Position numbers and translations under genes: made by a program. A stretch of DNA of 64,000 bases, taken from NCBI GenBank assembly GCA_017506865.1, contig JAFCMP010000521.1, positions 558,001 through 622,000 on the forward strand. The letters are read 5' to 3'. This document shows, in pieces, positions 130 to 63,200 of this stretch. The notes beneath the pieces are model-generated. The model searched no databases, was not told where the DNA came from, and was given only the letters and a program-made list of their open reading frames with translations. This DNA is from Tribonema minus. Lineage: Eukaryota > Sar > Xanthophyceae > Tribonematales > Tribonemataceae. Positions within the stretch are counted from its first letter, which is position 1; each line of letters begins with the position of its first letter.

Positions 130-1560
130 TGGCTTGTATGCAGCCGAGCGCAAACATCGTGGCTTGCGCAAAGCTGCAGATGTCCGCCGAGCGCCATGAA
201 TATACCTCAGTATACCACGCACATACTTGTTAGCAAACACCGAGCAAACTTTGCACACTTGGGACGAGACGAGTAAACGAGTACGAGTACTGTACGAGTA
301 CTGGTATGACGATCGTGTACGAGTACTTGTCCTGTACGAGTACTGCCTCCGAAATGATGTACGAGTACTCGTCCTGTACGAGTATGGCCTCCGAAATCAT
401 GTACGAGTACTCGTCCTGTACGAGTACCGCCCCAGGATGCATGTACGAGTACTCGTACAGTACGAGTACCGCCTCCGAAATCATGTACTTCGAAGTACGA
501 GTACTCGTACAGTACGAGTACTTCCGTACGAGTGTTCTACGAGTACGCGTACGAGTGTTTTGACGAGTAAATGCCTCATTGATTTCAGCGAGAGGTTCTG
601 CGGGGTTTTCGCCGTCGATCGCGCGAGGGCGGGCATGCACTGCGTAAAGTACTGTGGCGGTGATGCTCTTGGCTCCTGAAAGAGGTGGCTGGTGGAGCAC
701 GACAGCGTGCCGTGGCCATGCACAGACCCACAAACCTCATGCTTAGCTGGTTGCCTCAACCTTGATGCGCGGCTTTTCTCGTTCTTGCCTTGCCTCAGCA
801 TGTGCGCATAGTCCTTATGAATAGTCTAATGGAGGTGATTCTAGCACTGGCGTATCCACCTCCTCCCGACCGGCTCATGTTCCGAACAAATGACACACAC
901 AGAGCCGCCGCCACCGAGCTCCGCGCTCACGCGATACACTCGTGGTACTCGTACAAGCACTCGTGGTACTCGTACATGGACGAGTACGAGACATTACTGG
1001 TACGGAGTGGCATTTATGTACGAGTACTCGTCCTGTACGAGTACGGCCTCCGAAAACATGTACGAGTACTCGTGCTGTACGAGTACGGCCTCCGAAATCA
1101 TGTACGAGTACTCGTCCTGTACGAGTACGGCCTCCGAAATCATGTACGAGTACTCGTACAGTACGAGTACTTCCGTACGAGTGCTTCTACGAGTACGAGT
1201 AACGAGTAAATGACTTGTCTCGTCCCAAGTGTGAATTTTCAATATCAAGTAACGTAGAGGCGCGGCCTGCCTGTGAACAGCCCAGCGCGAACATCATGGC
1301 GCGCGCCGAGTTGCAGATATCCGCCGCCCAGCGCCATGAACATACTTTAGTATACCATGCCCATACTTGTAAGTAAACATAGAGTACACTTTCCGGTATA
1401 CTTGCGACATCAAGTTGAACATTGTGTAAAGTAGTAGGGAATGCAGTACAGCGCGAACATCATGGCGCGCGCCAAGTTGCAGGTGTCCGCCGCCCAGCGC
1501 CATTGATATACTTCAGTATGGTGCGCACACACTTGCGTAGAGTGTGCTTTGGCATACTTT
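130..1560 (-). repeat. Three degenerate copies of the 3' edge of glutamate-synthase-family exon 13
   Basis: Copies lie at about 138-235, 1262-1400 and 1440-1555; the parent is at 1590-1700. Each repeats the sequence coding [19 protein letters not shown] plus intronic bases (cagcgcgaacatcatggcgc on the plus strand). The copies contain indels and stops and are intronic or downstream relative to the real exon. The first two copies are separated by the TIR element at 254-1233. Confidence 0.75.
254..1233. mobile_element. 980-bp foldback-like element with 17-bp TIRs and palindromic 42-bp subterminal arrays
   Basis: The ends are a perfect 17-bp inverted repeat, CACACTTGGGACGAGAC at 254-270 and its complement at 1217-1233. 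Inside each end is an array with an exact 42-bp period built on the perfect palindrome GTACGAGTACTCGTAC: about five units at 316-525 and four at 1017-1184. The core (~560-1000) is non-repetitive with no recognisable transposase. The element sits within one degenerate copy of the exon-13 repeat: left and right flanks match different parts of the neighbouring unit. No clear target duplication was seen. I infer a non-autonomous DNA transposon. Confidence 0.6.
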
Positions 1561-1596
1561 CAGCATCATATTACGTAAGGTGTCAGGGCGGCTTGC

Positions 1597-59620: not shown

Positions 59621-60272
59621 GCGCCGCCTCTGCTGGTGCAGCTGCCATACCATCTGCCGTCTTCCCCACCGTTTCAGTGGCTGCGGTGGGGTAGCGCCTC
59701 AAGAGTTGGGGTATTGATGTGACCATCAGCACTCCCTGGAGGTGGACATGCGCCGCTGCCCACCGTCTGCGTCAGCTGAAGCAACCACCGTGTCACGACT
59801 CGTGCACTCCAATAAGTGACCCCCAATACGAGGTTTTCACCTCTACACCCGGCGACATCCGAAGAGCAGCGTCGAACATCCACTTCCAACCTCAGCCACT
59901 GAGCATGACAGGTGTTTTTGAGAGAGCAAGAGTTCATCCGACAAGTTTTGATCCCTCAAGATGATCCTCCTGGGCCAGATCTTGGTGGCTGTCACCCCCA
60001 TCTGCGACAAGGCCTCCAACTGTAAAATTCCTATCTGGCGCCCATCAAGACGTCACGATCTCTTAGACTTTGCACCGTCCAGCACGCCTGCAAGTATTGC
60101 AGGCGCGATCCAATCCCCCATAGTACACATCATCACAGGAGTATTGCAGGAGTACAGCCGCGCGGCCGCGTTTTCGACAAGAGGCTTATTAAGACGCCTG
60201 ATCTTGATCTTTGCGGAAGATACTCGGATATCCTATTGACACGGAGCGGAGCTGTGGCTGCAACAGCTGATC
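59620..60272. other. Upstream region of the apyrase gene
   Basis: No gene is recognised. A 92-codon plus-strand frame at 59961-60239 (MILLGQILVAVTPICD...) ends 33 bp before the apyrase start, but has no family signature and may be chance. The apyrase promoter is presumably here. Confidence 0.4.
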
Positions 60273-63200
60273 ATGGCGCCGCGTCGGCCGCTTCCTGCGG
60301 CGCCCGGAGTGCTGCAGCGGCTGCTGCTGGCTGCATCATGTCTTGCGGCAGCAGTATCGGCCAAGAGCAGCCTGCTGGACACAAGCGCAGTGGCACACGG
60401 CATGATCATTGACGCTGGGAGCGGCGGGTCTCGTCTGCATGTGTTTCGCTGGGGCTCGCGGCAGTTCGACTCGGCGCCGCCACCCATCTCCTACCCTTTC
60501 TCCAACAATGACTGGTGCAACAGGCTGAGACCCGGCATTTCATCCTATGCAGGTGCAACATCTTCGCTTGTTCTGCCATAGGGTCCGTTTTTTATACCTC
60601 TTCGCTAACAGTGTTGTCATGCAGTGTCAAGAGAGCTGTGCTGAGAGTCGTCCATCTGTGCACTAGCAAGTTCTCATGATCACCTGAGAGGCCGAAGCAG
60701 ACGCTGCAGGACCCACACGTCTCCGCCGTTGTTCTGATCCTTGGTTAGACTACCTCTTGCACCGTGAGTGCCGACATCATCACGAACAATTAGCCCAGCT
60801 AAGCACGACAGCGGGCACATCAACGCACACTCTCAATCATGCTGTTGGCTTCTACACCATAATTAAGATAGGACAGAATGGGGTGGGTCACTATGTGCAC
60901 CGTGCACTCTTGGTTCTCGGCCTACTCTGCGTACATATTAACCACAGAAACATCCCGGATAGACCTAACGTTTTCAAAAGCCGCCATTATTGTGCAAACT
61001 TTGTTTTAACGAAAGACATATTCAAACTTTAATCGCAGCGCAACACATCATGTTCGTAATAAGAGTGCGCCTATGATGCCACCTTCATCAATATGTTGAC
61101 TTGCTGATTGCTGCGCTGCACTACTGCTAGTGATGTGCTGAAGGATTACCAGTTGCTGTGAACATGAGTGCCGTCTGCCAAACTCCCAGTACACTTCAGC
61201 ACCAGAGGTGCGTCGGCACGGCATTTAAACATGGACTGTTGGGAAGCAGCGCGCACTACAACTGCTAATGGCGCTGAAGCGTGCATGCCCGCAGCAGTCA
61301 CACCCGTACACACACACATCCACGCATGTGTGCATAATCACGCATACGCATACCCACATGACGCATACGCGTACACGCATACCCATACGCGCGCGCACTG
61401 CAGACCACCCGCAGGACGTCGGACAGTCCCTCAAACCACTGGTCGACTTTGCGAAAACGATCCTCAAGGACCACGAGGAGGACTGGCACAAGTACCCCAT
61501 CTACCTGCGCGCGACTGCTGGCATGCGCCAGCTGGAGCCGACGAAGCGCGTCGCGGTTCTGGACGCTATTCGGGACTACTTGGGGGGTCCGGAGTGCCCG
61601 TTCCACTTTGAGTACCACTACGTGCGCGTCTTGGCCGGTGCGCACCCATGATTCGGCAGCGTGGTGACTGTTACGTTGCAGTGCTCAGCGACAGTTGCTG
61701 TAACTGTGTTGTTGAGGGGGTGCCTGCAGATGTCGAAGAGTAGCCTCAATCCTTCAAACATGTTTCGCAGCGTCCATGCGCACCTGTCAGCGCGTGGCAG
61801 CTGGCTGACAACCTCTGGGAGCAAGTTACTGTTTGCGGCGCGTCTCTCATCTTGTTGGCAGGCCAGTGTACTCAGTGCACTGCAGAGTCACGGGGGCTGC
61901 CTGGGCTGGCGTTAGCATTTGGTGCTGTTCTGGCTGCTCGTTGTAAACTAAGGCACGACTTCAGCTGAGTTGTCGCCCATTGCCAGAACTTCATGTTCAA
62001 CTTCAAATGTGTGACCGTGCCCCGCTGCGCCCCCGAGCACAGGCGAGGAGGAGGGCGTGTACGGCTGGGCCGCCGTCAACTTCCTGCGCGGCGACCTGCT
62101 GCCGAGCTCGGACGGCGCGGGCACGGCGGCGTCGGCAAGCACCGTCGGCGCGCTGGACATGGGCGGCGCGTCCACGCAGATCTCCTTCTTCCGCCCGGAC
62201 CAGGACATCATGGTGAGGGGCGCCTCTGTGTGTGTGTGTGATGAGAGTGCATGTTCAAGTTGAAGTTTACGACCGTCGGCGCGCTAGACATGGGCGGCGC
62301 GTCGACGCAGATCTCCTTCTTCCACCCGGACCAGGACATCATGGTGAGGAGCGTCGCCGTGCCGATAAGTTCTGTAGCGGTTTATGGGGGGGGGGGGGGC
62401 ATGCTCAATTGAGAAGTTCACGACGGACGGGGCGGTGGGCGAGGGCGGCGCCTCATTGGCGCATCATCTTCTTCCTTTGTCCGGACTAGGATGTAAGTTG
62501 CGGCTAACCATCCCTTGTCACCTGGAGCTGTACGATCTTTTGATTCGTTTTCATGTAAGGGTGAGGGGCGGGCGTCCCCGCGTGCCGAGAGTGTTGTAGT
62601 GTCGTGAAGGCTGTGTGCATGTTTGAATTGCAGCTTGCTTTGCTGGGTGCAGGGGCAATCGTTGCAGCGCGCACGTCAGAGAAGAAATTGCCGGACTCTT
62701 CAGCGCTGTCCACATCCTCTCGCTGTAATTTCTCTTGCCCCTGAAGCAGCCTCTGACAGCCCTCGCTGCGCACGTGCCAAACGCTTCCAGCACGATGGCA
62801 TTGATATCACCCGCAACGCGACGTGCGCAATGCACACGTCACAGAATCCCCCCCCCCCCTCCCCCCCCCCCGCCCCTCCCCCGCCGGCCGCCAGAGCAAC
62901 CTCTTCAAGCTCCAGATCGGCTCCCAGAAGCACTGGAACGTATACACGCACTCCTTCCTCGGCTTCGGCGAGGCCGCCATGCGCATGCGCCTCGACCAGC
63001 TCCTGGTGGATAGCGCCAACGGCCTCGCGCCGCACGCGCGCGCGCTGCTCGCGCTGCGCGCCGCCGCCGCCGGCGCGGACCCCCCCGCAACCGTCCGCCT
63101 CACGGACGACCGCTTCGGGGACTCGGTGGACGTGCCGGTGCACCCGCACGACCGCCTGCGCCGCCGCCTTTCAATCGCGGCGACGGCGGCAGCGCCAGCG

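Follow-up and report, generated by a model that had tools for sequence, protein, structure and literature searches.

Local tandem copies of splice junctions in introns of Tribonema minus

Several genes in a 64,000 nt stretch of the Tribonema minus (Xanthophyceae) genome (assembly GCA_017506865.1, contig JAFCMP010000521.1, positions 558,001-622,000; "the window" hereafter means this whole stretch) have introns that hold copies of the neighbouring exon edge together with its splice site. One of them is the reverse-strand glutamate-synthase gene, modelled as 13 exons in frame and 472 amino acids. Two copies of the acceptor edge of exon 2 (15850-16056, with the real acceptor edge at 16056 and a GC donor) lie upstream at 16167-16452, starting at about 16211 and 16350 and each including 45 nt of exon, and two copies of the donor edge of exon 3 (15497-15601, real donor edge at 15497) lie downstream at 15213-15440, both with a GC donor. 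Exon 6 (11337-11449, real donor edge at 11337) is followed by six donor-edge copies (10487-11241) at a spacing of 124-137 nt, with their last exon bases near 11200, 11066, 10929, 10792, 10668 and 10534. Single copies are found for the donor edge of exon 9 (7856-8040; copy at 7668-7738) and, upstream, for the acceptor edge of exon 11 (6433-6518; copy at 6728-6863), and further donor-edge copies lie downstream of exon 12 (4039-4137) at 3460-3900. Probe searches confirmed the copies at all six of these exons, as the original prediction had listed them, and repeat hits together with reading of the sequence did the same for the donor edge of exon 13 (1597-1736, GC donor), whose copies lie downstream at 132-1503 (about 1444-1503, 1269-1392 and 132-252) and stand outside the intron set counted below because the following exon is beyond the window. 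Exon 5 has an extra short copy of 23 nt, absent from that list. The published protein of this gene contains no copy, yet its exon 9 reads beyond our inferred donor, and it differs from our model at GC-AG introns. Among the best candidates of a genome search with the exon-6 edge there were seven matches, the exon and its six copies, all at this locus, which supports the absence of a dispersed element.

The SEL1L-like gene, also on the reverse strand, has an exon with both edges copied (27722-27917), flanked by two donor-edge copies downstream (27456-27688) and two acceptor-edge copies upstream (28031-28387; array unit 216, 94% matches), and another exon, starting at 33186, with an acceptor-edge copy upstream at 33287-33354. 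Copies had been proposed for its exons 2, 5, 8, 9 and 11; the proposal holds for these two exons, and other exons of the gene, where repeats were also seen, are candidates. On the forward strand, probes found both edges of RING exon 3 (38818-39036) copied, the acceptor edge upstream at 38611-38687 and the donor edge downstream at 39166-39519, and repeat hits and reading found an array of donor-edge copies (40280-40780) beside RING exon 4 (40101-40279), so that the claims for this gene stand. The proposed copy of the donor edge of apyrase exon 3 is likewise present, downstream at 62272-62361 on the forward strand (source 62141-62230, 92%). At the start of the Q-rich gene the 55-nt repeat is real (47752-47806 and 47947-48001, 85%), and its link with a splice junction is putative. 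Short repeats with near-identical units occur in the window strictly in head-to-tail order (29751-29832 and 40779-40846, for instance).

Of the 49 introns that we modelled, 12 belong to the glutamate-synthase gene and 3 to the RING gene; the other 34, the unbiased set, come from chaperonin and kinesin genes chosen blind to repeats. For the chaperonin loci, 41 neighbouring exon-hit pairs gave 31 introns, and for the kinesin loci 8 pairs gave 3; pairs were lost to unresolved or missing exons or to ambiguous acceptors, and two loci (L015 and L024) yielded no introns. Four partial matches resembling copies (C5:353415, C135:208473, C51:21979 and C51:22169) were dropped by eye before pairing, and C51:31584 was excluded as outside the fetched stretch. 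A copy in its own intron is present for 27 of the 98 junctions (about a quarter, very unevenly by gene), giving 58 junction copies in 24 of the 49 introns; the unbiased set contributes 18 of 68 junctions (8/34 donors and 10/34 acceptors). The copied-junction pattern is real and extends beyond the window. Its predicted geometry, with copies in direct orientation, those of donors downstream and those of acceptors upstream, was borne out: none of the 98 junction probes had a reverse-complemented copy, none of 64 probes had one on the opposite side of its exon, and 1 of 588 probes matched an intron of another gene. Two chaperonin loci, L013 and L014, have 12 of 22 junctions copied and the other unbiased loci 6 of 46; all six L014 introns carry copies versus none of seven in L016, a strong difference between genes. 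Telomere-like tracts were considered as a connected factor, and hexamer counts (41 in 41.6 kb of intron versus 45 in 103 kb of random sequence) gave no link.

Local copies become rarer away from junctions, from 27/98 at the junction itself to 46/415 for segments 60-600 nt away and 1/88 deeper; they occur for 14 of 400 segments of random genome (11 stretches, 103 kb, of 20, the other nine having fallen on contigs that were too short) and for 1 of 200 in gene-free stretches of the window. The rarity beyond 600 nt and in random regions counts against uniform duplication, unless the DNA there is younger. Our first intron-interior control (68/304 plus 38/236) gave too high a rate, since some of its probes fell on junction copies, and of these 53/81 and 26/40 match; interior probes clear of such copies match in 28/285 plus 19/218 cases, or 47/503. 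Junction segments thus have a local copy about 2.7-3 times as frequently as interior segments do, in figures that include L013 and L014, the source of 12 of the 18 unbiased cases.

The suggestion that the copies contribute to intron growth agrees with intron lengths (median 938 for the 24 introns with junction copies versus 657 for the 25 without, p = 0.009). The copies are also plausible decoy splice sites, as had been proposed: the score that marks the 10th percentile of real sites is equalled or exceeded by 21 of 33 donor and 21 of 25 acceptor copies, although as a group donor copies score below real donors (p = 0.025). The splice dinucleotide is kept in most (GT or GC in 26/33 donor copies, AG in 24/25 acceptor copies), and pyrimidine content 5' of acceptor copies is 0.65, against 0.53 for intron background. 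All six modelled introns of the CCT-theta gene hold junction copies, and the published CCT-theta protein matches our copy-free model exactly across all 497 amino acids modelled; the annotation therefore includes no copy. The published CCT-theta model, the one gene compared with annotation in this respect, contains no new intron arising from duplication.

The copies have a single edge each. Their exon part is 18-135 nt long (median 47), and none of the 55 anchored copies (of 58; search windows end at the next copy) extends to the far end of the exon. In several arrays the exon parts of different copies end at one position or nearly so (45/45; five of six at 42-43; 59/59; 47/47/39; 35/35), with varied stops in L014 intron 3 (48, 52, 59, 60 and 112), and 44 of 170 variant calls are common to several copies of one array; growth of arrays would produce such a pattern. 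The proposed decay of copies with distance was not seen (exon identity versus distance, Spearman rho = -0.06, p = 0.65, 58 copies). In the 55 of 58 copies that entered the codon test, exon parts carry substitutions at 6.8, 4.6 and 13.0% of first, second and third codon positions, a pattern that by our estimate is near that of neutral copies compared with a synonymously drifting exon; 121 of 244 substitutions are nonsynonymous, all but 3 of the 35 indels are frameshifts (32 of 35), and no substitution creates a stop codon, where about six are expected at random. Intron parts are more diverged than simulated (mean identity 0.65 versus 0.79; p < 0.05 for 18 of the 54 copies simulated, of 58), with a combined p of 2.5e-8 over 25 junctions, those of the same gene not being independent.

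The opposite splice dinucleotide stands at the exon breakpoint in 30 of 55 copies, no more often than the background of 0.53, which lends the idea of cassette exons no support. The same absence of excess, together with the frameshifting indels and the failure of any copy to reach the far exon end, led us to reject tandem exon duplication and mutually exclusive exons. For mRNA-templated insertion, which would give copies running across an exon-exon joint, junction probes showed the same 0/55, and most copies run into the near-end splice site.

We consider the pattern to be probably the product of ordinary head-to-tail tandem duplication, which would be tolerated as long as the genuine junction is left intact. 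T. minus introns would lengthen through head-to-tail duplication of segments of about 50-250 nt, and a unit that straddles a donor or acceptor would leave a copy beside an intact exon that is still spliced; because the mRNA is unchanged such duplication would be tolerated, and duplications that break an exon would be purged by selection. Surplus units would then decay, with array members recopied at times. If the exon part of a copy seems better kept than the intron part, the main reason would be that it is compared with a static real exon, so that only one side decays. Splicing here probably works by recognition of whole exons and passes over the copies, each of which has one edge only. When random tandem duplication is simulated without any targeting, 44-49% of the arrays that can be detected fall on a junction; we observed 26 of 41 (an array with its end within 5 nt of a junction being classed as interior), though the intron parts of copies are often near background identity. 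What is unusual is the scale.

Several observations count against ordinary duplication: intron parts that are too diverged, the lack of stops, the AG kept in 24/25 acceptor copies, the 26/41 above simulation and the strong differences between genes, for which it does not account. A residue remains, the exon parts having kept more of their sequence than neutral decay permits, and it would fit exon-limited copy correction, in which gene conversion or RNA-templated repair would rewrite the exon parts of decoys from the working exon while diverged intron parts escape. We hold this to be possible but unlikely. Consistent with it, 18 of 58 copies have exon identity of at least 0.95 beside an intron flank of just 0.65-0.66, versus 0.95 simulated; exon identity shows no correlation with intron identity (rho = 0.04); the same search with intron-internal control anchors reaches 0.95 in 1 of 44 cases (4 of the 44, with identity below 0.6, fall outside the identity bins reported); and the L014 intron 3 copy at -177 has 3 mismatches in 112 nt of exon, with adjoining intron at 0.66 identity. 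The excess shrinks, however, when shrinkage and full exon lengths are applied (p < 0.01 for 3/54 copies), exon parts have a pooled divergence of 9%, close to half the 26% seen between copies of intron interior, and the residue could also come from pyrimidine-rich, slippery intron sequence that turns over fast. The identity step between exon and intron parts had at first seemed decisive; the interior-anchor control and shrinkage left a smaller residue. Self-renewing decoy junctions, with exon edges and splice sites held near-identical while the intron drifts, are accordingly a tentative reading on the unlikely side; if they exist, the spliceosome constantly meets strong decoys in the same context and must use whole-exon recognition.

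Duplication targeted to splice junctions, by junction-initiated repair or slippage or by reverse splicing, was the mechanism originally put forward, and we now regard it as improbable. Junctions do exceed interior segments (odds ratio 3.7, p = 5e-6), also in the unbiased genes (18/68 versus 28/285, p = 0.0009), with junctions treated as independent in both tests and cases clustering by gene, and the gradient described above runs in the same direction. By our reasoning, however, an approximately two-fold excess is expected in any case, copies of constrained exon being detectable for about twice as long, and the observed 2.7-3-fold lies only somewhat above it. Exon-masked arrays touch junctions at the expected rate (6/20 versus 5.5; 5/12 versus 4.7) in a test that is underpowered because the intron parts of copies are eroded; exon breakpoints vary (18-135 nt); and the interior of long introns is likewise duplicated (23 of 200 random probes, six introns). 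Anchoring at splice junctions was therefore not upheld, given copying of interior segments and the junction share reached by simulation: junctions are copied clearly more often than random genome and more often than intron interior, but much of the latter difference may be a detection effect.

That the copies are functional, as alternative or poison exons or as selected splice-site decoys, is very doubtful: the well-kept dinucleotides, the pyrimidines before acceptor copies and the lack of stops would fit such a role, but half of the changes are nonsynonymous, nearly all indels shift the frame, single-edge copies have the opposite dinucleotide at chance frequency, donor copies score under real donors, and the published CCT-theta leaves the copies out. 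False tandem duplication in the assembly is scarcely credible, since most copies differ from their source in the exon or intron part and arrays reach eight detected copies; we found no support for it.

In intronic minisatellites, units tens to hundreds of bases long follow one another head to tail. The T. minus units are also head to tail and differ in taking in an exon edge and splice site. The duplications described by Gao and Lynch in 2009 reportedly include exon-intron boundaries. They belong to internal gene duplication, that is, duplication within genes, as cited in excerpts of PMC3488318 and PMC4974935. The 1989 model of Rogers, as outlined in excerpts of PMC4974935 and PMC3443670, has tandem duplication of a splice-site-bearing segment create a new intron; the direct duplication including a splice site and the coding sequence that can stay intact are shared with our case, whereas T. 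minus lengthens existing introns and the extra sites are unused in the published CCT-theta model. In the account of the potato RdRp gene in excerpts of PMC4974935, a tandem duplicate of intron-exon structure (polypyrimidine tract, 3' splice site and part of the exon, as in T. minus) made a new intron, and a second tandem duplication of 83 bp inside an intron left the structure unaffected; that case concerns a single event by which one gene gained an intron, whereas T. minus has multi-copy decaying arrays in many genes. Introner elements also multiply intron sequence within a genome, but insert into many genes (PMC9860276, in excerpt), whereas T. minus copies stay in the intron of origin; we rejected an introner identity on the 1/588 probes matching other genes' introns and the exon-6 edge found, among the best candidates, at its own locus only. 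A term search of PMC9860276 gave no mention of Tribonema, Xanthophyceae, stramenopile or tandem, and a literature search at the level of titles and abstract openings returned no report of the copied-junction pattern.

In many genes the copied junctions place similar splice sites in one and the same exon context, a natural collection on which the spliceosome's choice of the right site can be tested, and they let the share of tandem duplication in intron length be measured. T. minus gene models can also be led astray: at GC-AG introns the published glutamate-synthase protein differs from our model.

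The repeats first reported for the window, in which an exon edge, its splice site and some intron recur inside the adjoining intron, were recovered by self-comparison. With our gene models, a donor edge has its copies downstream and an acceptor edge has its copies upstream. Exon 6 of the minus-strand glutamate-synthase gene shows this most clearly, its last 33-43 nt and donor being present six further times at a spacing of 124-137 nt; when this edge was searched against the whole genome of Tribonema minus, a xanthophycean stramenopile alga (158 Mb, 554 contigs), seven matches among the best candidates were the exon and its six copies, all at their own locus. 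The window covers positions 558001-622000 of contig C518. The glutamate-synthase model built from it (13 exons, 472 amino acids in frame) aligns to the hypothetical T. minus protein JKP88DRAFT_270645 at 95% over 86% and matches it in the exons common to both; the mismatches fall where the two models part. The published protein (P0001) takes another path near exons 2 and 9-10 and continues past exon 13. The intron after exon 13 also holds two arrays of a 42-nt TACGAGTACTCGT minisatellite (window 277-552 and 974-1201). GC-AG introns account for 3 of the 49 modelled, namely intron 3 of locus L017 and those with minus-strand GC donors at window 15850 and 7283, and the exon-13 donor of the glutamate-synthase gene (1597, minus strand) is a further GC site.

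To sample genes apart from those of the original prediction, we took chaperonin (PF00118) and kinesin (PF00225) loci, termed unbiased below. In their search tables, inspected by eye, some exon hits are partly repeated, and the repeats lie on the expected side (chaperonin on contigs C51, C5 and C135; kinesin on C511 and C246). Twelve loci were fetched and introns were modelled for 34 of 49 neighbouring exon pairs, giving 49 introns with the 15 from the window; the model of CCT-theta (L014, on C135) is identical to the published T. minus protein over 497 amino acids (100%). Each junction was represented by a spanning 55-nt probe and searched in its own intron, where a copy was found for 18/68 unbiased and 9/30 window junctions. 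By comparison, reverse-complemented probes gave 0/98 matches, the intron on the exon's other side 0/64, introns of other genes 1/588, and probes from exon interiors 70-125 nt from the junction 4/62. The 58 junction copies are spread over 24 of the 49 introns; these 24 have a greater median length than the others (938 versus 657, p = 0.009). Genes differ strongly: L013 and CCT-theta have 12 of 22 junctions copied and the remaining unbiased loci 6 of 46, and copies occur in all six modelled CCT-theta introns versus none of seven in L016, another chaperonin gene, so that 'a quarter' of junctions is a mean across very unequal genes.

The exon parts of the copies are 18-135 nt long (median 47), and none of 55 extends to the far end of its exon. 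Compared with the real exon, 275 of their 3041 positions are changed (9%; 54 copies), with differences at codon positions 1, 2 and 3 of 6.8, 4.6 and 13.0%, 123 synonymous, 121 nonsynonymous and 0 stop substitutions, and frameshifts from 32 of 35 indels (55 copies). By our estimate this pattern fits copies that evolve neutrally and an exon that drifts synonymously; the lack of stops counts slightly against neutrality. The predicted decay with distance did not hold, because copy identity shows no fall with distance. GT or GC is kept in 26/33 donor copies and AG in 24/25 acceptor copies, and by score 21/33 and 21/25, respectively, pass as real sites, donor copies as a group scoring lower than real donors. 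The opposite splice dinucleotide occurs at 30/55 exon breakpoints, no excess over the background of 0.53.

We regard local head-to-tail duplication as the probable origin of the junction copies, with confidence tempered because the genes are so unequal. Such duplication would yield units of which some include an exon edge; the copy adjoining the intact exon would remain in use, and therefore the change would be tolerated and the intron would lengthen. In published CCT-theta the exon-side junction is used in all six modelled introns, all six of which hold junction copies, according to annotation rather than RNA, which implies that in acceptor arrays splicing picks the final AG of several; this choice would be expected under whole-exon recognition. 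Exonic splice enhancers are mentioned for the brown alga Ectocarpus (PMC12477816). Tandem duplication of segments holding splice-site sequence is a known route to new introns (PMC3443670, PMC4974935); no report of a genome in which such duplications build up beside many junctions as unused decoys was found in the literature searched, which takes in only a minority of subscription papers.

The rival that survives best is correction of the copies from the real exon, limited to exon sequence. Beside the junction the intron parts of copies are near background (identity about 0.6-0.7; unrelated sequence about 0.56), and in the 18 of 58 copies with exon identity of at least 0.95 the intron flank is at 0.65 versus the 0.95 predicted by neutral decay. 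Part of this drop arises from how copies are found, because control anchors inside introns also drop, from 0.74 at the anchor to 0.59-0.64 in the flanks where a bin holds more than one case. Once shrinkage and full exon lengths are applied, the excess divergence of intron parts has a combined p of 2.5e-8 (25 junctions), although single copies reach p < 0.05 in only 18 of 54 cases, that is, not in most. The residue reflects either such correction or unusually fast intron turnover.

Targeting of junctions themselves fares less well. Intron probes clear of junction copies matched in 28/285 (unbiased) and 19/218 (window) cases versus 18/68 and 9/30 for junctions, an excess with Fisher p of 0.0009 (unbiased) and 5e-6 (all genes) when junctions are treated as independent. 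We reason that part of it is a detection effect, an exon copy staying recognisable about twice as long because its template does not change. Random tandem duplication was simulated with exon damage selected against and with detection as for the real data: 44-49% of the arrays found then lie on junctions, versus 17/27 (unbiased) and 9/14 (window) observed. When exons are masked, contact between arrays and junctions is at its expected frequency; any preference beyond detection is therefore at most modest. Local direct repeats cover 22% of the first 43 introns with exons masked, and inverted repeats 0.3%; local-repeat cover in 11 random regions is between 0 and 6.5%. Probes matched in 23/200 cases in the interior of six long introns, in 1/200 in four stretches of the window that lack a gene model, and in random regions in 14/400 (direct) and 3/200 (inverted). 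Within introns there is a gradient, 46/415 probes matching at 60-600 nt from a junction and 1/88 deeper. Sequence far inside introns or between genes may just be of more recent origin: one AT-rich stretch deep in glutamate-synthase intron 4 (window about 13100-13900) has partial relatives in seven further genome matches, while another, deep in intron 11, is single-copy.

Similar AT-rich islands lie inside introns of this GC-rich gene at about 8900-9300, 5700-6000 and 2200-3000. Telomere-like TTAGGG tracts occur at window 4243-4320 and in many introns; hexamer counts are 41 for 41.6 kb of intron and 45 for 103 kb from random regions. Unlike the introns, window 29400-35000 is about 21% covered by inverted local repeats. 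A 435-nt direct repeat (72%; window 57253-57672 and 58723-59155) falls within long open frames where SLSPVR-like peptides recur, and it looks like coding repeats rather than intron copies.
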